Shown here piece by piece: positions 5,105-62,599 of a DNA stretch of 64,000 bases. The stretch spans positions 124,001-188,000 of the forward strand of contig CACJUF010000001.1 of NCBI GenBank assembly GCA_902596515.1, given 5' to 3'. Every line of letters starts with the position of its first letter. Position 1 is the first letter of the stretch. Source of the DNA: an uncultured Pelagibacteraceae bacterium (GTDB taxonomy: Bacteria; Pseudomonadota; Alphaproteobacteria; Pelagibacterales; Pelagibacteraceae). The notes beneath the pieces are model-generated. The model saw nothing but the letters and a program-made list of their open reading frames with translations, was not told the origin of the DNA and searched no databases. A program made the translations under genes and the position numbers.

Positions 5105-5794
5105 ATGAAACAAATTTTTACAATTCTTTTTGATTTAGATGGCACTTTAGTTGATACAGCTCCCGACTTAATGAGGGCCCACAATCATGTTATGAGTAAA
5201 TTTGGATATCCAACCAAGTCTACTGAGGAAATAAGAAACCTGGTGGGTCAAGGTGCTGGTGCAATGCTTGGTCGATCTATATGGGGTCAGGCAAAAAAAG
5301 AATTTGGAAAAGTCCAGGATGAAAAAATTAAAAAAGAAATGGTCAAAGAATTTGTAGAGTATTATGGAAATAATATTGTAAATGAAAGTAAATTAATTGA
5401 TGGAGTTAAAGATTTTTTAATATGGTCAAAAGAAAAAAAAATTTCAATGGGTGTTTGCACAAATAAACAAGAACATCTAGCAATTGATCTTTTAAAAAAA
5501 ATTGGAATTTATGATTTTTTTGAATATGTAGCGGGTCACAATACATTTGATTATTGTAAACCTGATCCAAGACACTTAACGTCTGTAGTTGAAATTTTAG
5601 ATGGGGATCTTAAAAAAACTTTAATGATTGGCGATAGTGAAACAGATGCTAACGCCGCAAAAGCTGCTGGAATTCCAGTTATTTTACTTGAGGATGGTTA
5701 TACGGAAAAAAATACAACTGAAATTTACCATAATCACTTAATAAAAGACTTCATAGGTATTGAAAAAATCGTAACAAAATATCTTAAATATTGA
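5105..5794 (+). CDS. gph: HAD-family hydrolase, phosphoglycolate phosphatase-like
   Basis: FDLDGTLVDTAPDL, CTNK, KPDP, MIGDSETDANAAKAAGIP motifs. Confidence 0.85.
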   Translation: MKQIFTILFDLDGTLVDTAPDLMRAHNHVMSKFGYPTKSTEEIRNLVGQGAGAMLGRSIWGQAKKEFGKVQDEKIKKEMVKEFVEYYGNNIVNESKLIDGVKDFLIWSKEKKISMGVCTNKQEHLAIDLLKKIGIYDFFEYVAGHNTFDYCKPDPRHLTSVVEILDGDLKKTLMIGDSETDANAAKAAGIPVILLEDGYTEKNTTEIYHNHLIKDFIGIEKIVTKYLKY

Positions 5795-5839
5795 TTATTT
5801 TTTTTAAACTATTAGAACAGTTTTCAATTAGGAGTTATT

Positions 5840-7342
5840 TTGATCATACATAACGTAAAAGTTTTCCCATCTAAAGTTCATTTATCCAAAAAAAAACAGC
5901 TGGCTTGGAAAATCGCAGAGATTGCAAGTGATAATGCAAAGTTAGATAAAGAAGCAATAGAGATGGTCATTAATAGAATTATTGATAATGCTTCAGTTGC
6001 AATAGCTTCTTTAAATAGACGTCCAGTTATTTCATCTCGAGAGATGGCCCTAAAACATTTAAGAAAAAATGGTGCAACATTATTTGGTGTTGATAATAAA
6101 TTAAAATTTGATTGTGAATGGGCAGCATGGAGCAACGGAACAGCTGTAAGAGAACTTGATTTTCATGACACGTTTTTAGCAGCTGATTACAGTCATCCTG
6201 GTGATAATATTCCTCCCCTTATAAGTGTTGCACAACAAAATAAAAAAAGTGGATTAGATCTTTTAAGAGGGATAATTACTGCCTATGAAGTGCAAGTTAA
6301 TTTAGTTAAAGGAATTTGTTTACATAAGCATAAAGTAGACCACATCGCTCACTTAGGACCAAGTGTTGCTGCTGGATTAGGATCCATGTTAAGACTAAAT
6401 ACAGAAACAATCTATCAAGCTGTTCAACAAGCTCTACATACAACTATTTCAACTAGACAGTCTAGAAAAGGTGAAATCTCTAGTTGGAAAGCTTATGCTC
6501 CAGCGCATGCCGGTAAACTTGCAATCGAGGCTGTAGATAGAGTTATGCGTGGTGAAGGTGCTCCAAGTCCAATTTATGAAGGTGAGGATAGTGTTATTGC
6601 ACGAATTTTAGATGGAAAAAAAGCGTTATATAGAATTCCACTTCCAAAAAAAAATGAGACTAAGAAAGCTATTCTTGAAACTTACACAAAAGAATATTCT
6701 GCCGAATATCAATCTCAAGCATTAATTGATCTTGCAAAAAAACTTAAAAATAAGATATCAAATCTAAATCAAATAAAAAAAATTGATATTTATACCAGTC
6801 ATCATACTCATTATGTGATTGGTACAGGTGCAAACGATCCTCAAAAAATGGATCCTAATGCAAGTAGAGAAACGTTAGATCATTCAATAATGTATATATT
6901 TGCTGTAGCTTTAGAAGATGGTAGTTGGCATCATGTAAAATCTTATTCGAAAGCCAGAGCAAAAAGAAAAAGTACAATTAAGATATGGAGGTCAATCAAA
7001 ACCCATGAGGATAAAAAATGGACCAAAAGATATCATGACCCAAACCCCAGAAAAAAAGCTTTTGGTGCAAAAGTCATAATTACCCTTAAAAATGGAAAAA
7101 AAATTACCGAAGAACAAGGAGTTGCAGATGCTCATCCTTATGGCTCAAGACCGTTCAAAAGAAAAAATTATATAAACAAATTTTTAACACTTACCGAAAA
7201 TATTTTAGATAAAAAAGAAATTGAAAGATTTTTAAAAACAGTGCAAAACTTAAGAAAACTAAAGTCAGGTCAATTAGATAGATTGAATATTATTGTTAAA
7301 AAGAGCAAAATTAAACGAAATTTAAAAAAAGGAATTTTTTAA
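5840..7342 (+). CDS. prpD: MmgE/PrpD family 2-methylcitrate dehydratase
   Basis: PrpD-like sequence ([42 protein letters not shown]) adjacent to prpB and prpC; exact start uncertain. Confidence 0.9.
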
Positions 7343-8238
7343 TGCATTTTGTTGAAAAAGAACCAATACAAAAAAGAAAAGACTTTACAGATAAATTAAA
7401 ATCTAAAAAAATATTAAGAGTTCCTGGTGCTTATAATCCTTTAACAGCAAAATTAATTGAGGAGATTGGTTATGATGCTGTTTATGTTTCAGGAGGTGTT
7501 ATGGCAAATGATCTTGGATTTCCTGATATTGGATTAACCACACTGCAAGATGTTAGTACGCGGTCGTACTTAATTTCTAGAGTTACAAATCTTCCTACAA
7601 TTGTAGATATAGATACAGGATTTAAATCATGTAAAGAAACTATAGAAACTTTTGAAGAGTTTGGAATTACTGGAGTTCATTTAGAAGATCAAATTGAAAG
7701 AAAAAGATGTGGACACCTAGATAACAAAGAATTGATATCCACAGATGCAATGGTGAAAAAAATTAAAGAATGTGTTTCTGCAAAAAAAGATGAAAATTTT
7801 AGGATTATTGCAAGGTCCGATGCAAAAAGTGTAGAAGGGATTGATAAAATGATCGAGAGATGTAAGGCTTATATCGATGCCGGAGCAGAAATTATTTTTC
7901 CTGAGGCGCTTCATGATGAAAAGGATTTTGAAAAAGTTAGAAAAGAATTATCGTGTTATTTGTTAGCCAATATGACTGAATTTGGAAAAACTAAATTATT
8001 AAATTACAAACAATTAGAAGAACTGGGTTACAACATCGTTATTTATCCTGTTACAACTCAAAGGTTAGCAATGAAAAACGTTGAAGATGGTTTGAGGGAC
8101 ATTTATGCAAATGGACACCAAAACAACATTATTGATAAAATGCAAACTAGAAAACGTTTATATGATCTTGTGGATTACGAGAAATATAATAGTTTAGATG
8201 AAAAAATTTATAACTTTAACACCGATGGTCACGATTAA
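7342..8238 (+). CDS. prpB: 2-methylisocitrate lyase
   Basis: VPGAYNPLTAKL...DIDTGF...HLEDQ...KRCGH motif of the ICL/PEPM superfamily; context prpD-prpB-prpC. Confidence 0.93.
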   Translation: MHFVEKEPIQKRKDFTDKLKSKKILRVPGAYNPLTAKLIEEIGYDAVYVSGGVMANDLGFPDIGLTTLQDVSTRSYLISRVTNLPTIVDIDTGFKSCKETIETFEEFGITGVHLEDQIERKRCGHLDNKELISTDAMVKKIKECVSAKKDENFRIIARSDAKSVEGIDKMIERCKAYIDAGAEIIFPEALHDEKDFEKVRKELSCYLLANMTEFGKTKLLNYKQLEELGYNIVIYPVTTQRLAMKNVEDGLRDIYANGHQNNIIDKMQTRKRLYDLVDYEKYNSLDEKIYNFNTDGHD

Positions 8239-9362
8239 TGAGTGATGATATTAAAAAAGGCTTATTAGGAATTGTTGTAGACGAAACAGAAGTCTCAAAA
8301 GTAATGCCTGAAATTAACTCTTTAACTTACAGAGGTTATGCTGCTCAAGATCTTTGTGAATATTGTAGATTTGAGGAAGTAGCTTATCTTATTTTAAATA
8401 AAGATTTACCAAATACTATTCAGCTTAGAAAATTTGAAAAGGAAGAGAAAAATAATAGAGAATTATCTAAAGATTTATACTCAGTTATAAAAAAAATGCC
8501 TAAAAAATCTCATCCTATGGATGTGGCTAGAACAGCCGTAAGTATTATGGGTTTAGAAGATAAAGAAACAACTGATTCCTCTCCTGAAGCAAATATGAGA
8601 AAAGCAATTAGAATCCTTGCAAAAACTCCTACTGCATTAGCTGCTTTCTACAGAATTAGAAAAGGTAAAAAAATTATCAAACCCAAAAAAAATTTAAATA
8701 TAGCAGAGAACTTTTTTTATATGTGTTTTGGAAAAGTACCTCAAAAAGAAATAGTAAAAGCTTTTGATGTGTCTTTAATACTATATGCAGAGCATAGCTT
8801 TAACGTTTCAACTTTTACTGCAAGAACTATTACCAGCAGCTTGTCTGATATTCACGGGGCAATTACTGGAGCAATAGCAAGTTTAAAAGGTCCATTACAT
8901 GGAGGAGCTAATGAAGAAGTAATGCATATGATGAACAAAATTAAGGATCCTAAAAACGCTCTTAAATGGATAAATGATGCCTTAGATAAAAAAGAGGTTG
9001 TTATGGGTTTTGGTCATAGAGTTTACAAAAGTGGAGACTCAAGAGTTCCTACAATGAGAAAATATTTCTCTAAAGTAGCAAAAATTAAAAAGGATAAAAA
9101 ATTTGAAAAAATTTACGACATTGTTGAAAAAGTAATGATTGAGAGAAAAAACATCCATCCAAACGTGGATTATCCTACTGGACCGACTTATCACTTGATG
9201 GGTTTTGATACAGATTTCTTTACACCGATATTCGTTATTTCAAGAATAACTGGTTGGTCAGCGCATATAATGGAGCAACATGCTGCAAATAAACTGATCA
9301 GACCTCTTGCAAGTTACAAAGGTAACAAGCACAGAAAAGTTTTACAATTAAATCAAAGATAA
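8238..9362 (+). CDS. prpC: 2-methylcitrate synthase / citrate synthase family
   Basis: Citrate synthase motifs LHGGANEEVM, MGFGHRVYK, WSAHIMEQ; prp context. Confidence 0.92.
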   Translation: MSDDIKKGLLGIVVDETEVSKVMPEINSLTYRGYAAQDLCEYCRFEEVAYLILNKDLPNTIQLRKFEKEEKNNRELSKDLYSVIKKMPKKSHPMDVARTAVSIMGLEDKETTDSSPEANMRKAIRILAKTPTALAAFYRIRKGKKIIKPKKNLNIAENFFYMCFGKVPQKEIVKAFDVSLILYAEHSFNVSTFTARTITSSLSDIHGAITGAIASLKGPLHGGANEEVMHMMNKIKDPKNALKWINDALDKKEVVMGFGHRVYKSGDSRVPTMRKYFSKVAKIKKDKKFEKIYDIVEKVMIERKNIHPNVDYPTGPTYHLMGFDTDFFTPIFVISRITGWSAHIMEQHAANKLIRPLASYKGNKHRKVLQLNQR

Positions 9363-22849: not shown

Positions 22850-23449
22850 ATGCATCCAGCATACTATGAAGATTTTGGGGAAATTCAAAATAAGTATTGG
22901 TCTATGTTAGATGATGCTGTGACCAATAGAGGCTCGCCATTTAGAATTCCAGTTTTTATTTGTGCTCATCAAAACGAAGTTGATGGTAGAATAGTTGTCT
23001 TACGTAAATCAGATAGAAAAAATAATCTGTTACAGTTTCATACTGATTTAAGATCCCCAAAAGTAGATATACTTAAAAAAAATAAGAATGCCTCTTTAGT
23101 TTTCTACGATAAAGAAGAAAAGATACAGTTAAGAGTTAAAGTAGAATGTGAGGTTAATAATCAAAATTCCATAACAGAGGAATCTTGGAAAAAAACTCAA
23201 CATATCAGTAGACGTTGTTATTTAACTGATAGCCCTCCTGGAACTTCATCAGAAAATCCAACTTCTGGAATGATATCTAAATTAGAAGATTTTGATTACA
23301 CTATGGAACAAAGTGAAGAAGGTTATAAAAATTTTACAGTTATAAAATGTAAAATTAAATCCATTGAGTGGCTATATCTTGCAGCTAAAGGTCACCGAAG
23401 AGCAAAATTTAATTTGGAAACTAATAAAAATGAATGGTTAATTCCATAA
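22850..23449 (+). CDS. Pyridoxamine 5'-phosphate oxidase-like flavin protein
   Basis: FHTDLRSPKVDIL, LRVKVECEV, IEWLYLAAKGHRRAKF pattern. Confidence 0.78.
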   Translation: MHPAYYEDFGEIQNKYWSMLDDAVTNRGSPFRIPVFICAHQNEVDGRIVVLRKSDRKNNLLQFHTDLRSPKVDILKKNKNASLVFYDKEEKIQLRVKVECEVNNQNSITEESWKKTQHISRRCYLTDSPPGTSSENPTSGMISKLEDFDYTMEQSEEGYKNFTVIKCKIKSIEWLYLAAKGHRRAKFNLETNKNEWLIP

Positions 23450-23454
23450 ATGCG

Positions 23455-23715
23455 ATGATAGATTTTATTATAAAATATATTGGTTTTTTCGCAGCTTTTT
23501 GTACTACATTCGCTTTTTTACCCCAAGCTATAAAAGTTTATCAAACTAAAAGTACAAAAGATATTTCTCTTTATATGTTTTTAATATTTACAATTGGAGT
23601 TTTGTCTTGGCTTATATATGGATTAATAATAAAGGACTTACCAGTAATTTTAGCTAATGCTGTAACACTAATTTTAAGTTTTTTTATATTGATTTACAAA
23701 TTAAGATTTAAGTAA
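23455..23715 (+). CDS. SemiSWEET/PQ-loop family transporter
   Basis: FLPQAIKVYQTKSTKDISLYMFLIFTIGVLSWLIYG; 3 TM; start taken at MIDFIIK. Confidence 0.88.
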   Translation: MIDFIIKYIGFFAAFCTTFAFLPQAIKVYQTKSTKDISLYMFLIFTIGVLSWLIYGLIIKDLPVILANAVTLILSFFILIYKLRFK

Positions 23716-23738
23716 TCAGAAAATTTTAAAAATATTTT

Positions 23739-24368
23739 TTATAAGAAATTAAAAATACTTTTTTTTATTGTTTCAGCAATAATCAATACTCCTTTTTCAT
23801 TAGGGTGTAATCCATCATCCTGATTAAAATTTGGGTTAAGAGCAACACCTTTTAATAAAAATGGAATTAATTCTATTTCAAATTTTTTTGATAAATCAGG
23901 ATAAATTTTATCAAATTCTTTTTTATAACTTAATCCATTTGTAGGTGAAGCAACCATACCTGCAAGAATTACCTTAATGTTATTATCTAGTATAATGTTA
24001 ATAATCTTGTCTAAATTTTGCTTTGTTTGATTTGGGTTAATTCTTCTTAACATGTCATTTGCTCCAAGACCAATAATTATCAAATCATAACTTTCATCTA
24101 ATAATTCATCTTCTATTCTATTTAAACCATCTAAAGAAGTGTTACCAGAGACACTGCCATTAAAAACTTGAGTTTCATATCCTTCAGATTTTAAACTTTT
24201 TTCTAAAATTACAGATAAATGATCCTTCTCAGGTAGGCCATAACCTGACATAAGGCTGTCACCAAATAATAATACTTTTTCTAATTTAATTTGTGATTTT
24301 TTTTCACCGCAACTTATTAATAAAATTGAAATTAAACTTAGGATAACGATCCCTAAAAGTTTTTTCAT
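23739..24368 (-). CDS. GDSL/SGNH arylesterase, TesA-like, lipoprotein signal
   Basis: LISCGEKKS lipobox, LFGDSLMSGYGL, GANDMLRR, DGLHPNEKG. Confidence 0.87.
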   Translation of the reverse strand: MKKLLGIVILSLISILLISCGEKKSQIKLEKVLLFGDSLMSGYGLPEKDHLSVILEKSLKSEGYETQVFNGSVSGNTSLDGLNRIEDELLDESYDLIIIGLGANDMLRRINPNQTKQNLDKIINIILDNNIKVILAGMVASPTNGLSYKKEFDKIYPDLSKKFEIELIPFLLKGVALNPNFNQDDGLHPNEKGVLIIAETIKKSIFNFL

Positions 24369-24374
24369 AAATTT

Positions 24375-37506: not shown

Positions 37507-38384
37507 TCAAAAAAGGGATTATATTAGCAGGTGGAAAAGGGACTAGAATGAGCCCTGTCACAAAAGCAGTCAACAAACAATTATTACCAATTTACGACAA
37601 ACCTTTAATTTTTTATCCCTTGTCTATTTTAATGTTAGCAAAAATTAAGAACATTTTAATAGTTGTAAACAAAGGCCAGTTACAACAATATAAAAAAATT
37701 ATACCAGATGGTAAAAGCCTTGGGATAAAAATTACATATCAAGAACAAGATAAACCCAAAGGATTGCCAGATGCTTTTTTATTAGGTGAAAAATTCATTG
37801 GTAGAGATAATGTTGCAATGATATTAGGTGATAATTTTTTTTATGGTCAAAACCTAACAGGTAAACTTCTTAATAGCACAAAACTTAAAAAGGGTGCAAA
37901 AGTTGTACTTCATAAAGTTCAAAAACCAGAAGCATTTGGTGTTGCTAAAATAAATAATAAAAACAAAATCATCATGATTAAGGAAAAACCCAAAAAATTC
38001 ATATCTGACCTTGCTATAACTGGATTATATTTTTTTGATAACAATGTGGTGAAATTTGCAAAAAAATTGAAACCCTCAAAAAGAGGTGAATTAGAAATAG
38101 TTGATTTACTTAATCTTTATAGAAAAAAAAATCAACTTTCTGCAGATTTAATTGGTAGAGGTGGCGCTTGGCTAGACACAGGATCTATAGAAGATTTCTA
38201 CAAAACTTCGGCATTTGTATCAGCTATCGAAAATAGACAAGGTTTTAAAATAGCGTGTATAGAGGAAATTGCATATTTAAATAAGTGGATTACTAAAAGA
38301 GAAATAAATTCTGCAATTAAATTTTATGGTAATTGTGAATATTCAAATTATCTCAAAAAAATTATTTTGTGGAATCAAAACTAA
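37503..38384 (+). CDS. rfbA: Glucose-1-phosphate thymidylyltransferase
   Basis: KGIILAGGKGTRMSPVTKAVNKQLLPIYDKPLIFYPLS, ILGDNFFYG, WLDTGS. Confidence 0.95.
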   Translation: MIKKGIILAGGKGTRMSPVTKAVNKQLLPIYDKPLIFYPLSILMLAKIKNILIVVNKGQLQQYKKIIPDGKSLGIKITYQEQDKPKGLPDAFLLGEKFIGRDNVAMILGDNFFYGQNLTGKLLNSTKLKKGAKVVLHKVQKPEAFGVAKINNKNKIIMIKEKPKKFISDLAITGLYFFDNNVVKFAKKLKPSKRGELEIVDLLNLYRKKNQLSADLIGRGGAWLDTGSIEDFYKTSAFVSAIENRQGFKIACIEEIAYLNKWITKREINSAIKFYGNCEYSNYLKKIILWNQN

Positions 38385-39754
38385 ATACATTTATTTTTAT
38401 TCTTATAATTTCCTTAGGATTTTTTCTTAGATTTTATAATTTGAATTTTGAAAATTTCTGGATAGATGAAACCATTACTTTTTGGATTGGAAATCCAGAA
38501 TTTTCAATTAGTCAATCTTTTCAATATCACAAGTCAATTGAACAAGTACCTTTTTTTTTCAATTTTTTAATAAAAATTTATTTTAAAATACTTGGATATA
38601 ATTTTGAAATTAGCAGATATCTCCCAGCATTACTTTCATCTTTATCAATAATTTCAGTCTCATATATTAATAAAGAAATCTCGAATGATAAATCATATAT
38701 TTTTACATCTTTTTTAATTGCTATTAATATCTATTTAATTTCATATGCTCAAGAATTGAGATTGTATTCAACTTTATTCTTTTTAATCTCGCTTACAATT
38801 TATTTTTCTTTTAAGTTTGAAAATAAGGACAAATTAATTTTTTTTTACCTTTATAATATATTTTTATTGTTAACATCTTTAATACATCCATTTGGATTAA
38901 TAATTTATTTTGCAATGATTATTTCTGAATTAAAATTTTTTCAAAAAAATGACAAATTTATTCTTAAAAAAATTATTGCTTACACTTTTTCAGCTCTATT
39001 TATACTAATATACTATTTTATCCAATTGAATGAAAGTTACCTGACTCCTATTTGGATAGAAACAATAGACATTAAATTTTTTACAAATCTTTTTTTTTCT
39101 AACTTCTTTGGATCAAGAATTATGGGATTAATATACCTTATAACATTTATAACTTTAACAGTGAAATTTTTTAGATCATTTAACAAAAATAAAAAATTAT
39201 TTTTTTTGTTATCAATATTTGTATTGTCTTATTTACTTCCTCTTATTTATGGCGTTTTATTTAAACCAATCTTAGTTCCAAGATATATTATTTTTATTAT
39301 AATACCAACAATAGTTATTATCTCACATTTCATTTTTAAACTTAATAGGTTAAAAAGAAATCTTGTCTTAACCTTTTTAATATTAATAACATTTTTAAAC
39401 CTAACTACTGAACAAACTTTTAAGCAATTTTATAAAGAAAGAGTTTCATATAAACATGATTTTGAAGGAGCATTGAAAAAAATATCTACATCTGAAATCA
39501 ATAATTATTCTATAAGTATTGACATTGAACAAAAAAAATTATCTAAAGCATGGGAAGCATCTATAAGAAATTACATTAAATTTATTATAAATGAAAATAA
39601 TCTTAATCTTTCACGTGTTGTATATTCAAATGAATTGAAAAATTCATGGGTTATATGCATTCATGATTTAAACCAAAATAAATGCGATAAAATATTTAAA
39701 AATAGATTAAAAACTGTAAAACTAAATAGAATTGACCTAATTAGAATTCCATAA
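38369..39754 (+). CDS. Glycosyltransferase family 39-like membrane protein
   Basis: Multi-TM, FENFWIDETITFWIG N-terminal acidic motif of PMT/ArnT-like enzymes. Confidence 0.75.
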   Translation: MESKLNTFIFILIISLGFFLRFYNLNFENFWIDETITFWIGNPEFSISQSFQYHKSIEQVPFFFNFLIKIYFKILGYNFEISRYLPALLSSLSIISVSYINKEISNDKSYIFTSFLIAINIYLISYAQELRLYSTLFFLISLTIYFSFKFENKDKLIFFYLYNIFLLLTSLIHPFGLIIYFAMIISELKFFQKNDKFILKKIIAYTFSALFILIYYFIQLNESYLTPIWIETIDIKFFTNLFFSNFFGSRIMGLIYLITFITLTVKFFRSFNKNKKLFFLLSIFVLSYLLPLIYGVLFKPILVPRYIIFIIIPTIVIISHFIFKLNRLKRNLVLTFLILITFLNLTTEQTFKQFYKERVSYKHDFEGALKKISTSEINNYSISIDIEQKKLSKAWEASIRNYIKFIINENNLNLSRVVYSNELKNSWVICIHDLNQNKCDKIFKNRLKTVKLNRIDLIRIP

Positions 39755-39773
39755 AAAACAGCAATTTATTATA

Positions 39774-39850
39774 TGGTAGCGGGAAGTGGGATCGAACCAC
39801 TGACCTCGGGCTTATGAGTCCCGCGCTCTAACCAACTGAGCTACCCCGCC
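39774..39850 (-). tRNA. tRNA-Met (CAT), elongator-like (tRNA-Ile2 not excluded)
   Basis: Minus strand ggcggggtagctcagttggttagagcgcgggactcataagtcccgaggtcagtggttcgatcccacttcccgctacca folds as a cloverleaf; anticodon CAT at 39816-39814; CCA encoded. Confidence 0.93.
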
Positions 39851-56246: not shown

Positions 56247-56816
56247 ATGACTGATTTTTTACAATCTATAATAGACAGAGATCCTGCGGCAAAATCTAAG
56301 TTAAGTCTTGTATTAACTTACCCAGGGGTTAAGGCTATTTTTTTTCATAAAATTGCAAATTTTTTTGCAATAGCAAAATTTGATTTAGTTGCAAGAATCA
56401 TTTCTCAATTTTCAAGATTTTTAACAGGAATAGAAATTCATCCAAAGGCAAAGATTGGAAAAAATTTATTTATTGATCACGGTATGGGCGTTGTTATCGG
56501 TGAGACATCTGAGATTGGAAACAATGTTACGATTTATCATAATGTTACATTAGGTGGAATTGCTCCAAGTATAAACACTAATGATCAAAGAAATACTAAA
56601 AGACATCCAACTTTAGAGGATAATGTTGTTGTTGGATCTGGTGCTCAAATTTTAGGACCAATAACAGTTGGTAAAAATTCCTTAATCGGTGCAAATGCAG
56701 TAGTTACTAAAAATGTTCCAGAGAAATCAATAATGGTAGGAATTCCAGCTACAAGAGTTGGTGATGCTACAAAAGGATTTCAACCTTATGCTGTTACTGA
56801 TAAAGATAAAGATTAA
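56247..56816 (+). CDS. cysE: Serine O-acetyltransferase
   Basis: [62 protein letters not shown]. Confidence 0.93.
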
Positions 56817-57817
56817 TGTCACAAATTAAAAATAACTTTATTGAGTCAGTTGGTAATACTCCATTAATAAAATTAAAAGCAGCCTCTGAGATCACTGGAT
56901 GTAATATTTATGGAAAAGCGGAGTACCTAAATCCAGGTGGATCTGTTAAAGATAGAGCTGCTCTTGCGCTAATAAAAGATGCACAAGAAAAGAAATTAAT
57001 TTCAGAAGGTGGGATTGTTGTTGAAGGAACTGCAGGTAATACTGGGATTGGTTTATGTCTCCTAGGAAACTCCTTAGGTTATAAAACAATTATTGTAATG
57101 AATGACAACCAAACCCAAGAAAAAAAAGATACGTTAAAAAATATTGGTGCAGATCTTAGACTGGTACCGCCCAAGCCATATAAAGATGATGGTAACTATG
57201 TAAAAGTTGCGGGCCGTCTTGCTGAAGAATTAAAAAGTACAAATAATAATGGTGTAGTTTGGGCAAACCAATTTGATAACACTGCTAATGCAAAAGGTCA
57301 TTACGAAACGACTGGACCAGAGATTTGGGAACAAACCGGTGGTAAAGTAGATGGCTTTGTCTGCGCATCAGGAACTGGAGGCACCATTGGTGGTGTAAGT
57401 AAATTTCTAAAAGAAAAAAATAAGAATATAAAAATTTATTTATCAGATCCAACAGGCTCTGCACTCTATAATCATATTATGAATGGTGAACTTAAAGCTG
57501 AGGGTGGATCAATAACTGAAGGTATTGGTTCAAGCAGAATAACTAAAAACTTTGCTGAAGCTAAAATTGATGGTGCTTTTTCAATCAGTGATCAAGAGTC
57601 TTTACCCGTGCTTTATGATTTAATACAGAACGAGGGGTTAAGTTTAGGAACTAGTTGTGGAGTAAATATTGCAGGTGCAATTAGATTAGGAAAAGAGCTA
57701 GGTCCAGGAAAAACAATTGTAACAATTCTCTGTGATAGATCAGATAAATACAACTCAAAGATGTTTAATAAATCCTTTTTAAAGGAAAAAAACCTCCCTA
57801 TTCCTAGCTGGTTATAA
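56816..57817 (+). CDS. cysK: Cysteine synthase family PLP enzyme
   Basis: IESVGNTPLIKLKAASE, NPGGSVKDRAAL, GTAGNTGIGL, SGTGGTIGGVSKFLKE. Confidence 0.92.
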   Translation: MSQIKNNFIESVGNTPLIKLKAASEITGCNIYGKAEYLNPGGSVKDRAALALIKDAQEKKLISEGGIVVEGTAGNTGIGLCLLGNSLGYKTIIVMNDNQTQEKKDTLKNIGADLRLVPPKPYKDDGNYVKVAGRLAEELKSTNNNGVVWANQFDNTANAKGHYETTGPEIWEQTGGKVDGFVCASGTGGTIGGVSKFLKEKNKNIKIYLSDPTGSALYNHIMNGELKAEGGSITEGIGSSRITKNFAEAKIDGAFSISDQESLPVLYDLIQNEGLSLGTSCGVNIAGAIRLGKELGPGKTIVTILCDRSDKYNSKMFNKSFLKEKNLPIPSWL

Positions 57818-57885: not shown

Positions 57886-58257
57886 ATGAAAAAAATTATT
57901 ATAATTTTATCTTTTTTCATCTTTACATCTGCTAATGCAGGAATGAGTGATAAAGATAAATCAAAAGCATGGGATTGTGTTGGTATTTATATGGCCAACT
58001 ACTTTCTTCCATCAGGTGAAAAATTTGAGTACGGAATGAAAGAAAAATCAATTTCAACTGTGAAAGTTTTAAAAACCTATGCCCTTGAAATAGGTATACC
58101 AGAAAAAGATTGGGATGCTGGAGTAAACAAAGCAGTAGATAAACATTATGGATCCAAATACGACAAAGCTAAAACTGACAAATGCCATACATTTGTTGAG
58201 GCTTTAGTACCAAATGGAGCCGAGAGAGTAAAAAAAGTCGTTCAAACTTTATATTAA
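57886..58257 (+). CDS. Secreted hypothetical protein
   Basis: Signal peptide MKKIIIILSFFIFTSANA; no family recognised. Confidence 0.65.
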   Translation: MKKIIIILSFFIFTSANAGMSDKDKSKAWDCVGIYMANYFLPSGEKFEYGMKEKSISTVKVLKTYALEIGIPEKDWDAGVNKAVDKHYGSKYDKAKTDKCHTFVEALVPNGAERVKKVVQTLY

Positions 58258-58268
58258 AAAGGAGATAA

Positions 58269-58748
58269 ATGAAAAAAATTATATTCACAATATTGTTTTC
58301 AATGCTTTCAACCACAGCATTTGCTAATTCAGGAAAAATTAATTTGGAAGGTTTTGGATCATGGGATATTACCGCGATAAACGCTGGAAAAGGAGATTTA
58401 GCAATTACTTATGACGGAATAGCAAGTATGAAGGATAAAAACGGTGACCAAGTATTTAATAATGTTTCAGTTCATTGTGTTGGAGGATTGACTACCCAAG
58501 GTGGAAACTTTGTAGATGAAACTGGTATGTGTAGATTTGATCTTTTTGATGGTGAAAGTGTATTTATAAAATATACTGGTAAAGGAACTACAGGTGTAGA
58601 TGGATCTGGTGCATTTGTATTTGTAAGAGGAACTGGAAAATATGAAAATATCAAAGGTAGTGGAACCAGTAGTAGAACTAATCTAAAAACGAAGAAAAAG
58701 GGTTTTGCATCAACTTTAAATATATTTAAGGGTGAGTACACATATTAA
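58269..58748 (+). CDS. Secreted hypothetical protein (beta-rich)
   Basis: Signal peptide, aaaaggagataaATG RBS; GTGKYENIKGSGTSSR-like segment reminiscent of allene-oxide-cyclase-barrel/DUF3224-type proteins (tentative). Confidence 0.65.
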   Translation: MKKIIFTILFSMLSTTAFANSGKINLEGFGSWDITAINAGKGDLAITYDGIASMKDKNGDQVFNNVSVHCVGGLTTQGGNFVDETGMCRFDLFDGESVFIKYTGKGTTGVDGSGAFVFVRGTGKYENIKGSGTSSRTNLKTKKKGFASTLNIFKGEYTY

Positions 58749-58767
58749 TAATCAATAAAGGAGTATT

Positions 58768-59139
58768 ATGTCAGAAATAAAATGTATAAATTTAGGATAT
58801 GTTGTTCCAAAAGATAAGGCTGATGAGGTTCTAGAATTATTTAAAACACATGCCGCATGGATGCAAGAATTTTACTCAGACACAAATGATGGTTCTAAGT
58901 ATTTAATAAGTTCATTTTTCACAAAAGCAGATGAATTTGTAAATCCTGCAGACCCAAGCCAAGGATTGACTGGAAATGTTGTTTTTACAATTAATGAAAG
59001 ATTTACCTCAATGGATAGTGTTAAACGTCACGTGGAAAATGCAATGAAAAATGATTACTTTCCAAAATTTGGTGAAATAATGGAAAAATATGGTGTTGCT
59101 CGAAGCTTGGGCGGAGAAATATATCATTCAATAAGATGA
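58768..59139 (+). CDS. Small hypothetical protein, possible dimeric alpha/beta-barrel fold
   Basis: aaaggag RBS; predicted beta-alpha-beta-beta-alpha-beta by eye. Confidence 0.65.
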   Translation: MSEIKCINLGYVVPKDKADEVLELFKTHAAWMQEFYSDTNDGSKYLISSFFTKADEFVNPADPSQGLTGNVVFTINERFTSMDSVKRHVENAMKNDYFPKFGEIMEKYGVARSLGGEIYHSIR

Positions 59140-59157
59140 GATTAAAAAAGGAGGAAA

Positions 59158-59448
59158 ATGGAAAAAGAAATGTTAGTACATCTAAAACTTAAAGAGGGTA
59201 AATTAGAAACTTTCATGGGTTGGATGCAATCAGATGAAGGTATGAGTGTCAGAAAAAGTGTTGCTTATCCTGAAAAAACTATTGGGGCTATGATACCAGA
59301 TAAGAGTGGGATGTTATTCAAAGTTAATGTTCATAATGAAGCTGGAATGAAAGAATTTGTAACCGGTAATAATCCTACTGCAAAAGCTATCTATGCAGAG
59401 TGTGTAGAGAGTGCTCAGTTATTTGAACTATCTAAAATAAATTTATAA
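59158..59448 (+). CDS. Small hypothetical protein, possible dimeric alpha/beta-barrel fold
   Basis: aaaggaggaaaATG RBS; 96 aa. Confidence 0.65.
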   Translation: MEKEMLVHLKLKEGKLETFMGWMQSDEGMSVRKSVAYPEKTIGAMIPDKSGMLFKVNVHNEAGMKEFVTGNNPTAKAIYAECVESAQLFELSKINL

Positions 59449-59458
59449 AGGAGAAAAT

Positions 59459-59746
59459 ATGAAAAACTACATGGTAACTCACACTTTCAAATCAAAGGAG
59501 ATGAAAGATAAATTTTCAGAGACAGTTGCATCAATGAAGATGGAAGATATTGTAAAATCAATGACTAGTGAAGATGCAGCATGTCAAATGACTTGGAATA
59601 CTCCAGGAGATACAATGCAAATGTTTTGTTGGTGGAAAGGTAAAAATCCAGAGGCTATTAATAAACAATTAGCATCTATGAATGACTTTTTTGAACCTCA
59701 TAAATTTACTGAGTGCACAGATGAAGTAATGGATTACAACGCCTAG
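59459..59746 (+). CDS. Small hypothetical protein, possible dimeric alpha/beta-barrel fold
   Basis: aaaggagaaaatATG RBS; 95 aa. Confidence 0.65.
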   Translation: MKNYMVTHTFKSKEMKDKFSETVASMKMEDIVKSMTSEDAACQMTWNTPGDTMQMFCWWKGKNPEAINKQLASMNDFFEPHKFTECTDEVMDYNA

Positions 59747-59767
59747 AATAGGCCAAAACTTTTTTTA
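59741..59767 (+). terminator. Putative intra-operon terminator/attenuator
   Basis: gccta-gaa-taggc (59741-59753), overlapping the TAG stop of the preceding gene, followed by caaaactttttttaatt. Confidence 0.5.
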
Positions 59768-59789
59768 ATTAAATTTAAGAGAAAAAAAA

Positions 59790-60107
59790 ATGAAAGTAAT
59801 TTACACAAGAACAATGAGAGTAAAAGATGATGGTTTAGGAAAAGCAATGGAGATTGGGAAAGGTTTAGCTGCAGTAAGAAAAAAACATTACCCCAATCAT
59901 GATGTTTATTTCTCTTTTCAAATGGGTGGAGACCCAAGAACAATAAGAGAGACTTTAATTGGACCTATGTTTGAGGGTGATAATGAGGCTGACGCTAACA
60001 TGTCTGCTGATCCTGAATATATAAAACTTTTAGAGCAATTAAAAGAAGTTGCAATAGAAGGAACTATTAAGGACGAGATAAGACCGATATTTAGTGAAGG
60101 AGAATAA
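59790..60107 (+). CDS. Small hypothetical protein, possible dimeric alpha/beta-barrel fold
   Basis: 105 aa, co-directional in tight gene run. Confidence 0.65.
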   Translation: MKVIYTRTMRVKDDGLGKAMEIGKGLAAVRKKHYPNHDVYFSFQMGGDPRTIRETLIGPMFEGDNEADANMSADPEYIKLLEQLKEVAIEGTIKDEIRPIFSEGE

Positions 60108-60110
60108 ATA

Positions 60111-60527
60111 ATGTTAGAAAAATTTAATGGGATATTTTATTTAATAATTTACTTAGTTCATTTTATTGGAGTTGGTGTTTACGCATTTCAAACTATTTTT
60201 GGCACTAAAAGCTTCATGGAAAGATTTGGTATCGATCCAAGTGGCGCAATAATGATTAGAATGGCAGGAGCGTTTATGCTTGCTGTATTTTTAATGTCAA
60301 TCTATGTAGGTTTTATAAGACCTGGAGGTTTGGAAAATACATGGGGATTCTTAAATTTAGTTTTTATAAATAATCTATGTATTTTTTTATGTAATTTTTA
60401 TTCTATTAAAATAAATAAAACAGGTGTGAATGAAAAAACTACAAACGAGGGTGTTATTGCACCGTTTGTATTTACGATTATGAGTGCAATTTTATGCTAC
60501 GGTTTAGCTGATAAAATTTACACTTAA
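60111..60527 (+). CDS. Small 4-TM membrane protein of unknown function
   Basis: Four hydrophobic segments; gaaggagaataaataATG RBS. Confidence 0.65.
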   Translation: MLEKFNGIFYLIIYLVHFIGVGVYAFQTIFGTKSFMERFGIDPSGAIMIRMAGAFMLAVFLMSIYVGFIRPGGLENTWGFLNLVFINNLCIFLCNFYSIKINKTGVNEKTTNEGVIAPFVFTIMSAILCYGLADKIYT

Positions 60528-60814
60528 TGTCTGGGTTTGCAATATTCAACATAGAGGTAAAAAAACCTGAAAAATATAAAGAGTACGTAGAAAAAGTGAA
60601 ACCGATTGCTGAAAAATTTGGTGGAGAATATATTGTTAGAGGTGGTGAAACAAAAGTATTAGAAGGAACTTGGGCATATCCTAGAACAGTTGTTATTAAA
60701 TTTCCAAGTTATGACAAAGCTTTAGAGTGGTATAACTCTGATGAATACAAACCAATTAAACAAATCCGTTTAGAAAACTCGATTGGTAACGGAATAATAA
60801 TTAAAGGAGTATAA
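60527..60814 (+). CDS. DUF1330 family protein
   Basis: FAIFNIEVKKPEKYKEYVEKVKPIAEKFGGEYIVRGGETKVLEGTW...VIKFPSYDKALEWYNSDEYKPIKQIR. Confidence 0.9.
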   Translation: MSGFAIFNIEVKKPEKYKEYVEKVKPIAEKFGGEYIVRGGETKVLEGTWAYPRTVVIKFPSYDKALEWYNSDEYKPIKQIRLENSIGNGIIIKGV

Positions 60815-60815
60815 A

Positions 60816-61136
60816 ATGTCGATATTAAAAAGATATACTGATGCAATAGATAAAAAAGATGAGGCAACTATGAATGAACTTTTGCATGATGATTTTAAAT
60901 TCACGATGCATAAATCTGGAAATTCTTTAGGAAAAGCTGATGTTATAAAATGGGCAATGAGTGGAGATATCAATCAAGATAAAACTAGGGTTGTATATGA
61001 AAATGATGAAGTGGGTGTACACCATTCTTTTGTTACATTTAATGACGGAAATGTTGAAGCTGTAATGGCGGTTTATAGATATAAAGACGGAAAAATTGTT
61101 AGTTTAGAAACTGGCGCTACTCCAATGTCTAAGTAA
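60816..61136 (+). CDS. SnoaL/NTF2-like protein
   Basis: LKRYTDAIDKKDEATMNELLHDDFKFTMH...VMAVYRYKDGKIVSLE. Confidence 0.78.
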   Translation: MSILKRYTDAIDKKDEATMNELLHDDFKFTMHKSGNSLGKADVIKWAMSGDINQDKTRVVYENDEVGVHHSFVTFNDGNVEAVMAVYRYKDGKIVSLETGATPMSK

Positions 61137-61685
61137 GTGAAAAAAATTTCATTCATTTTTATTTTTTTCTTATTTTCATCGTCTTTATTGGCTGACGATA
61201 ATAAAAAAGAAATTGATAAATTATTTGTTCAATTAAAAAGTGCTTTAAACTTTGAAAATTCAAAAAAAATAGAGGATAAAATTTGGGATCTTTGGACTAC
61301 TCATCCAACTAAAAATAATTTAACAAAGTTATTAGCTGATGGTTCATCTGCAATGATGGAGAATAAACTTGATGCTGCATATGATAAATTTACTGAAGTC
61401 ATTAAACTTGATCCTAATTGGGCAGAAGCTTGGAATAAAAGAGCAACGGTATTATATTTAATGGGTAAATACGAGCTATCACAAGCTGATATTGACAAAG
61501 TGCTTTTGATAGAAAAAAGACATTTCGGTGCACTAACAGGCCAAGGTTTAGTTCAAACAGCTTTAAAAAACTACGAAAAAGCTATTGATAGTTACATTGA
61601 AGCTCATAAAGTTCATCCGTTTTTGAAGTCTCCTATGATTATGATGGAAAAGCTTCAAATCGAATTGCAGAAACAAAGTATTTAA
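61137..61685 (+). CDS. Exported TPR-repeat protein
   Basis: GTG start, signal peptide, AAYDKFTEVIKLDPNWAEAWNKRATVLYLMGKYELSQADIDKVL. Confidence 0.82.
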   Translation: MKKISFIFIFFLFSSSLLADDNKKEIDKLFVQLKSALNFENSKKIEDKIWDLWTTHPTKNNLTKLLADGSSAMMENKLDAAYDKFTEVIKLDPNWAEAWNKRATVLYLMGKYELSQADIDKVLLIEKRHFGALTGQGLVQTALKNYEKAIDSYIEAHKVHPFLKSPMIMMEKLQIELQKQSI

Positions 61686-61687
61686 AA

Positions 61688-61909
61688 ATGTTTCCAAAAA
61701 AATATTCTAACCTTTTATTTATATTAGTTATGGGATTTGGGATGAGTCTTTTAATGACACTAATAATTACTTATATAAATACTGGAATGGATAATGAGTA
61801 TGTCGACCGTTTTTTTAAAGCATGGTCAGTAAGTCTTCCAATTGCAATAATTGCTGCTCTTCTTGTAGGTCCCCCGATTAAAAAATTTGTAGATAAAATT
61901 ACCAAATAA
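61688..61909 (+). CDS. DUF2798 family membrane protein
   Basis: MGFGMSLLMTLIITYINTG...FFKAWSVSLPIAIIAALLVGPPIKKFVDKI. Confidence 0.83.
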   Translation: MFPKKYSNLLFILVMGFGMSLLMTLIITYINTGMDNEYVDRFFKAWSVSLPIAIIAALLVGPPIKKFVDKITK

Positions 61910-61924
61910 GAATATCTTTTATTT

Positions 61925-62260
61925 GTGAGTAACGTTATAGCTTTTCTAATCCTTATCCTTGCTGTCATATTAGGTACTGCAGCAAATAGTTTTGCAAAAA
62001 GTGCAAATGGTTTCACATTGTTAGTTCCTAGTTTAATTACTGCAATCACAATAATTGGTTGCATGTTTACTCTTTCAATAGTGATGAAAACTATACCTGT
62101 TGGTATTACCTACGCATCTTTTGCTGGTTTATGTATCGTGGCGACTTCGATTGTTGGAATATATAAATTCAATCAAGTACCTGATCTATTCACAATCATT
62201 GGTTTGATATTAATTATATCAGGAGTCTTAATTGTTAATCTGCTGGGTAAAACAGGATAA
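61925..62260 (+). CDS. Small multidrug resistance (SMR)-like protein 1
   Basis: GTG start; 4 TM; ILAVILGTAANSFAKSANGF...IPVGITYASFAGL...GLILIISGVLIVNLLGKT. Confidence 0.85.
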   Translation: MSNVIAFLILILAVILGTAANSFAKSANGFTLLVPSLITAITIIGCMFTLSIVMKTIPVGITYASFAGLCIVATSIVGIYKFNQVPDLFTIIGLILIISGVLIVNLLGKTG

Positions 62261-62263
62261 TTT

Positions 62264-62599
62264 ATGGCAAATTTATCTGGTTATATCTTTTTAGCTTTAG
62301 CAATACTTCTTGGAATAACTTCAAATGGTTTTTTAAAATCAACTAATGGATTTACAATAATTGGGCCAACTATTTTTTGTATCATATCTATAGTTGCTTG
62401 TATTTTTTGTTTATCTAAAGCAATGAATATTATTCCAGTTGGTTTTACATATGCAACATATGGAGGTTTAACGATTACTGCAGTAACACTATTTGGTGTT
62501 TTTAAATATCAGCAAATTCCAAACTTGTATGGGATTATTGGAATAAGTTTAATAATTATTGGTGTAATTCTTTTAAATACTTTGGGTAAAACTAGCTAG
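62264..62599 (+). CDS. Small multidrug resistance (SMR)-like protein 2
   Basis: 4 TM; LALAILLGITSNGFLKSTNGF...IPVGFTYATYGGL...GVILLNTLGKT. Confidence 0.85.
   Translation: MANLSGYIFLALAILLGITSNGFLKSTNGFTIIGPTIFCIISIVACIFCLSKAMNIIPVGFTYATYGGLTITAVTLFGVFKYQQIPNLYGIIGISLIIIGVILLNTLGKTS

Follow-up and report, generated by a model that had tools for sequence, protein, structure and literature searches.

Behind cysE-cysK, the window (the whole stretch of DNA analysed here, 64 kb, corresponding to C1:124001-188000 of a 1.13 Mb source genome that is 92% complete) carries a row of nine small open reading frames (ORFs) on one strand (Table 1). An ORF check bears out what a preliminary description of this DNA had proposed at 57886-61136: all nine are present, each encoding a protein of 95-159 aa. 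From A to SnoaL, the spacers measure 11, 19, 18, 10, 43, 3, -1 and 1 nt; the gaps had been described as mostly under 20 bp, which holds for seven spacers but not for the 43 nt between E and F (59746-59790). A ribosome-site-like motif lies 5' of most modules, the clearest exceptions being DUF1330 (34%) and A (43%). Since dozens of genomes contain these families and dN/dS is low, we regard the array ORFs as real genes. The array may be transcribed as one operon. Promoter and terminator scans of the locus stayed at chance level, a scan of 54-64 kb against Rfam gave no match even at E<=1, and the only repeats in the array were ribosome-site and signal-peptide-like matches, with no cassette repeat among them.

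Table 1. Features at the array site, in window coordinates; 'pool' denotes the restricted set of gene families that fill the site in related genomes
Feature	Position	Strand	Remarks
cysE-cysK	56247..57817	+	Left-hand flank of the site, conserved in Pelagibacter; outside the pool
A	57886..58257	+	123 aa; signal-peptide-like N terminus; invariant Cys C31 and C100; median dN/dS 0.079
B	58269..58748	+	159 aa; signal-peptide-like N terminus; Gly-rich; invariant C70/C88; in 38/118 arrays
C	58768..59139	+	123 aa; in 13/118 arrays; DABB-like by eye only
D	59158..59448	+	96 aa; predicted dimeric alpha/beta-barrel-type fold (AF2 pLDDT 96)
E	59459..59746	+	95 aa; invariant C42 and C57; weak SCO4226-like (PF14026) match below cut-off
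F	59790..60107	+	105 aa; predicted DABB/NIPSNAP/LsrG-like fold (AF2 pLDDT 90); two main allele classes
TM	60111..60527	+	138 aa hydrophobic membrane protein; sole pool gene seen antisense (21 arrays)
DUF1330 (PF07045)	60527..60814	+	DABB superfamily
SnoaL_2/NTF2-like	60816..61136	+	Commonly the final pool gene; in 104/118 arrays
Right border	61137..62599	+	TPR protein, 73 aa membrane protein and two adjoining SMR-type small membrane proteins (61925-62599), the latter forming the right array border in many Pelagibacter genomes

Two of the proteins had been assigned to families from the sequence, and Pfam agrees on both (DUF1330, E 2.7e-32; SnoaL_2, E 3.2e-9); likewise, the two proteins described as secreted, at 57886 and 58269, both begin with a signal-peptide-like segment. 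For A, B, C, D, E, F and TM, Pfam gave no family above cut-off. A second DUF1330 gene, 39% identical, lies outside the array at G000:C12:9854-9919 (L002).

The four small soluble proteins left without a family (C, D, E and F) had been read as sharing a beta-alpha-beta-beta-alpha-beta topology. AF2 models of D and F agree with this reading, but E offers only a weak family match to SCO4226-like (E 0.0025; 18.4 bits against a cut-off of 28.5), which recurs below cut-off in 11/11 diverse members. The D monomer model, built from 26 sequences, has a mean pLDDT of 96 and the expected order of elements, with both helices split in two. Its neighbours in the PDB are ABM monooxygenases, olivetolic acid cyclase, LsrG, NIPSNAP and SnoaB, at TM-scores of about 0.5-0.6 that indicate a fold class and not close kinship. 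The F monomer model (pLDDT 89.8) has the same topology and matches NIPSNAP and LsrG with TM-scores of up to 0.76. On the strength of these models, D and F belong to the dimeric alpha/beta-barrel (DABB) fold class. Their predicted fold is that of the DABB superfamily (ABM monooxygenases, NIPSNAP, LsrG, olivetolic acid cyclase), whereas their sequences are only about 4-22% identical to it. Searches of PDB sequences with D, E and B profiles yielded nothing significant.

Gene content between cysK and SMR

Few cell types in the ocean are as abundant as bacteria of the SAR11 group, whose genomes are streamlined; the relatives of the window are uncultured Pelagibacteraceae and thus belong to this group. 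Within the genus, cysK was detected in 103/114 genomes (E<=1e-80), while D is present in 91/247 genomes of the family and in 60/103 of the good ones. Between cysK and the SMR genes, the number of small genes ranges from 0 to 12, and they come from 17 families, namely the nine of the window together with x3 (GYD), x7 (SnoaL-like), x9 (DUF3764), x11 (weak ABM), x12 (68 aa, secreted by eye), x13 and x40 (both cupins) and x63. This pool is almost closed, with 791/803 gene slots filled from the 17 families and 12 from outside. A common ancestry of the pool families was considered and rejected: in profile-profile comparison, matches above 50% probability mostly reflected shared signal peptides, and the best remaining pairs, DUF1330-x9 (34%) and D-DUF1330 (27%), are unconvincing.

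Loci were mapped by anchoring on D and on cysK, so that array frequencies describe a biased sample; within it, 118 unique SAR11 cysK arrays represent 79 arrangements, 61 of them seen once, and 90 distinct arrays can be told apart at the allele level. All pool genes other than TM are co-oriented with cysK. They encode about 70-160 aa, mostly as modules of one gene plus its own ribosome-site-like leader, and are separated by a median of 12.5 nt, with 92% of spacers at <=30 nt. The order of many gene pairs conflicts between arrays, DUF1330 preceding TM in 25 cases and following it in 24. In one genome (G026), cysK and SMR enclose a single 69 aa ORF and no array, and another (G003) carries A-E-TM only, despite flanks similar to those of genomes with the full set. 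The array of a further genome (G035) consists of TM, F, x9, B, A, D, E, x13 and SnoaL. The matches to F in 17 genomes of the genus all map to the array. At the right border, the place of the TPR gene is occupied by different genes in other genomes. Relatives of C in two loci (L044 and L129) have a signal-peptide-like N terminus. The array is thus a flexible genomic island, in that gene content varies among close relatives at a conserved site.

Exchange between close relatives and purifying selection

Genes of the array are shuffled between close relatives. Pairs of genomes were taken as close where cysK is at least 97% identical, and content or order differs in 29/70 of them; in a few pairs both entries represent a single genome, an effect that can have inflated only the number scored as the same. 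Identity of F in close pairs is 60-75% in 21 and above 90% in 33, with none between, and E, TM and DUF1330 split in a similar manner. The SMR flank, in contrast, is above 90% identical in 41/42 close pairs and has no allele split. The closest relatives of the window combine the allele classes of D, E, F and TM in several ways, and in comparison with G003 the blocks of homology begin and end at gene edges. Mis-assembly is an unlikely source of this variation because the arrays lie inside single contigs and because genomes consisting of a single contig also vary in array content.

Comparison of the 64 kb with three relatives (G003, G162 and G261) shows three main breaks in gene content, the array among them, and the remainder is collinear. 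The other two breaks fall at about 23.4-24.4 kb (23430-24374) and 38.3-39.8 kb (38346-39787), the latter adjoining a tRNA-Met gene at 39774-39850. In one complete genome (G017), the array D-E-F-A-TM-SnoaL lies at 662 kb (L066, G017:C1:656305-668583, about 5754-8845), behind polysaccharide genes and a cysK remnant made up of 168 bp of its 3' part, and a full cysK is found at 342 kb with no array; this layout is a rearrangement that broke at the array.

Purifying selection acts strongly on every family of the pool. Median dN/dS ranges from 0.024 to 0.103 for the nine families of the window and from 0.024 to 0.131 across the pool, and the medians for the comparison genes are 0.067 (cysE), 0.079 (cysK) and 0.079 (IMP). 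Such low ratios argue against decaying or neutral genes as well as against a diversifying arms race. Close relatives thus hold different subsets of a limited repertoire of small proteins, all strongly conserved, which suggests selection for a function that differs from place to place.

Origin and possible function of the array

The same families also occur together at other sites. In a further SAR11 genus (g4), a nearly fixed row of A-DUF1330-D-E-TM-x11-x3 stands between other genes, away from cysK, and in a lineage with 1.4 Mb genomes (f31), which we take to be HIMB59-like, three genomes carry D+SnoaL, D+x13+SnoaL and D+x13+F+SnoaL, respectively, at a third site. The preliminary description had looked to neighbourhoods in other genomes for linkage, and this part of it stands, as the families co-occur in several unrelated chromosomal contexts; the presence of one pool at unrelated sites supports a functional linkage. 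Relatives of D were absent from the sampled genomes of the class outside SAR11 and f31, and E had none among 299 genomes of the phylum except in the source genome. We do not favour a functional tie to cysteine synthesis: other lineages have the pool at sites remote from cysK, and sulfur limitation did not induce cysK or cysE in HTCC1062 (PMC5069961).

What comparison does not support is the proposal that these genes form one multi-component system. In its strict form, a complex or pathway in which heteromeric DABB barrels act together to handle small metabolites, it would account for the conserved company across contexts, the tight spacing, the several DABB members in one row and the near-fixed order in g4. 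It fits poorly, however, with a site that has no fixed arrangement, at which relatives carry from none to twelve genes in many orders, any given member is absent from many arrays, some arrays have one to three members and genomes with similar flanks hold either A-E-TM or the full set; we therefore regard a fixed system as unlikely. Accessory genes that pass neutrally through a permissive insertion spot would leave array-free genomes such as G026 and further variable spots in the same 64 kb, both of which are seen, but they would not be expected to come from an almost closed pool or to have dN/dS as low as core genes, which makes neutral passage quite improbable.

Strong purifying selection in all families likewise weighs against a locus for defence, toxin-immunity or another arms race, even though such loci typically combine a high turnover of presence and absence with discrete allele classes. 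The folds that can be recognised are DABB, NTF2 and cupin, and PADLOC produced no credible match, its one hit to Cas11 (E 4e-4, over 59 residues of B) being judged due to chance; a role in defence is thus very unlikely. Least probable of all is that the array is the product of a mobile element, be it a set of integron cassettes, a phage satellite or another recombinase-driven island. Its modular single-gene units in one orientation do resemble integron cassettes, and chromosomal integrons are likewise rows of small modular genes. The array differs from these in its almost closed pool and in its spacers, whose median of 12.5 nt is too short to accommodate attC, and no integrase, transposase or other recombinase was recognised in the mapped arrays, no tRNA lies at the array site and no relatives of D and E were found in viral contigs.

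Our preferred reading, to which we give an even chance of being correct, is a flexible island fixed between cysK and SMR whose single-gene modules are combined for the handling of small molecules. Homologous recombination would be the simplest explanation of the exchange: recombination between cells may swap and add modules, with homology provided by the pool genes themselves and by the flanks. A passage in PMC12421898 that cites earlier work describes homologous recombination as widespread in SAR11.

Members of the DABB, NTF2/SnoaL and cupin groups often bind or act on small organic molecules without complex cofactors. Several pool families have small barrel or cone folds of ligand-binding type (DABB in DUF1330 and, by model, in D and F; GYD and DUF3764; SnoaL/NTF2; cupin), next to secreted proteins and one membrane protein, which makes small-metabolite handling plausible, although the DABB fold spans enzymes, binders and proteins of unknown function and does not by itself give such a role; A, B, TM and x12 fit the theme of barrel enzymes poorly. 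Each module may bind or transform a different small organic or reactive molecule, the subset carried by a cell being suited to the local chemistry, so that the array looks like an interchangeable kit for small molecules. More tentatively, balancing selection could possibly maintain an almost closed SAR11 repertoire of small, cofactor-light barrel proteins, of which each cell carries a different hand, put together one gene after another at a single site with no dedicated recombinase.

The theory of flexible genomic islands (Lopez-Perez et al. 2014, PMC4033161) covers the general kind to which the array belongs. Akin to the replacement and additive islands described there, the array occupies a fixed site and varies in content between clonal frames, and homologous recombination has been proposed for replacement islands (PMC4033161). 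Replacement islands, however, swap complete clusters, mostly for surface structures, whereas in the array the units exchanged are single genes, which encode small proteins of an almost closed pool; additive islands consist of cassettes flanked by integrase or transposase, whereas the arrays run from cysK to SMR with almost only pool genes. The hypervariable regions HVR1-4 of SAR11 were defined on HTCC1062 (Wilhelm et al. 2007, PMC2217521). These regions and the polymorphic gene indels reported with them share with the array a local loss of synteny within a conserved genome and variably present genes under purifying selection, but HVR2 comprises 48 kb of mainly cell-surface genes and the array only a few kb that encode very small proteins of a single pool; neither cysK nor cysE is mentioned in that paper. 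Among open-access papers, we found no published description of this locus, which is a clear natural example of how an operon can be put together gene by gene.

Some pool families (x13, TM and C) also occur outside arrays, a point against our preferred reading, and TM and C do so in other alphaproteobacteria. One alphaproteobacterial locus (L290:5998-6855) contains two tandem, divergent TM homologues with no other pool gene nearby. The cupin x13, missing from the array of the source genome, sits alone at G000:C6:33365-33712 (L264, L283). In two other alphaproteobacteria (L285 and L287), a GYD-type gene and an x13-type cupin are neighbours at a distance of no more than about 1 kb, a hint that similar clusters of small barrel proteins exist outside SAR11.
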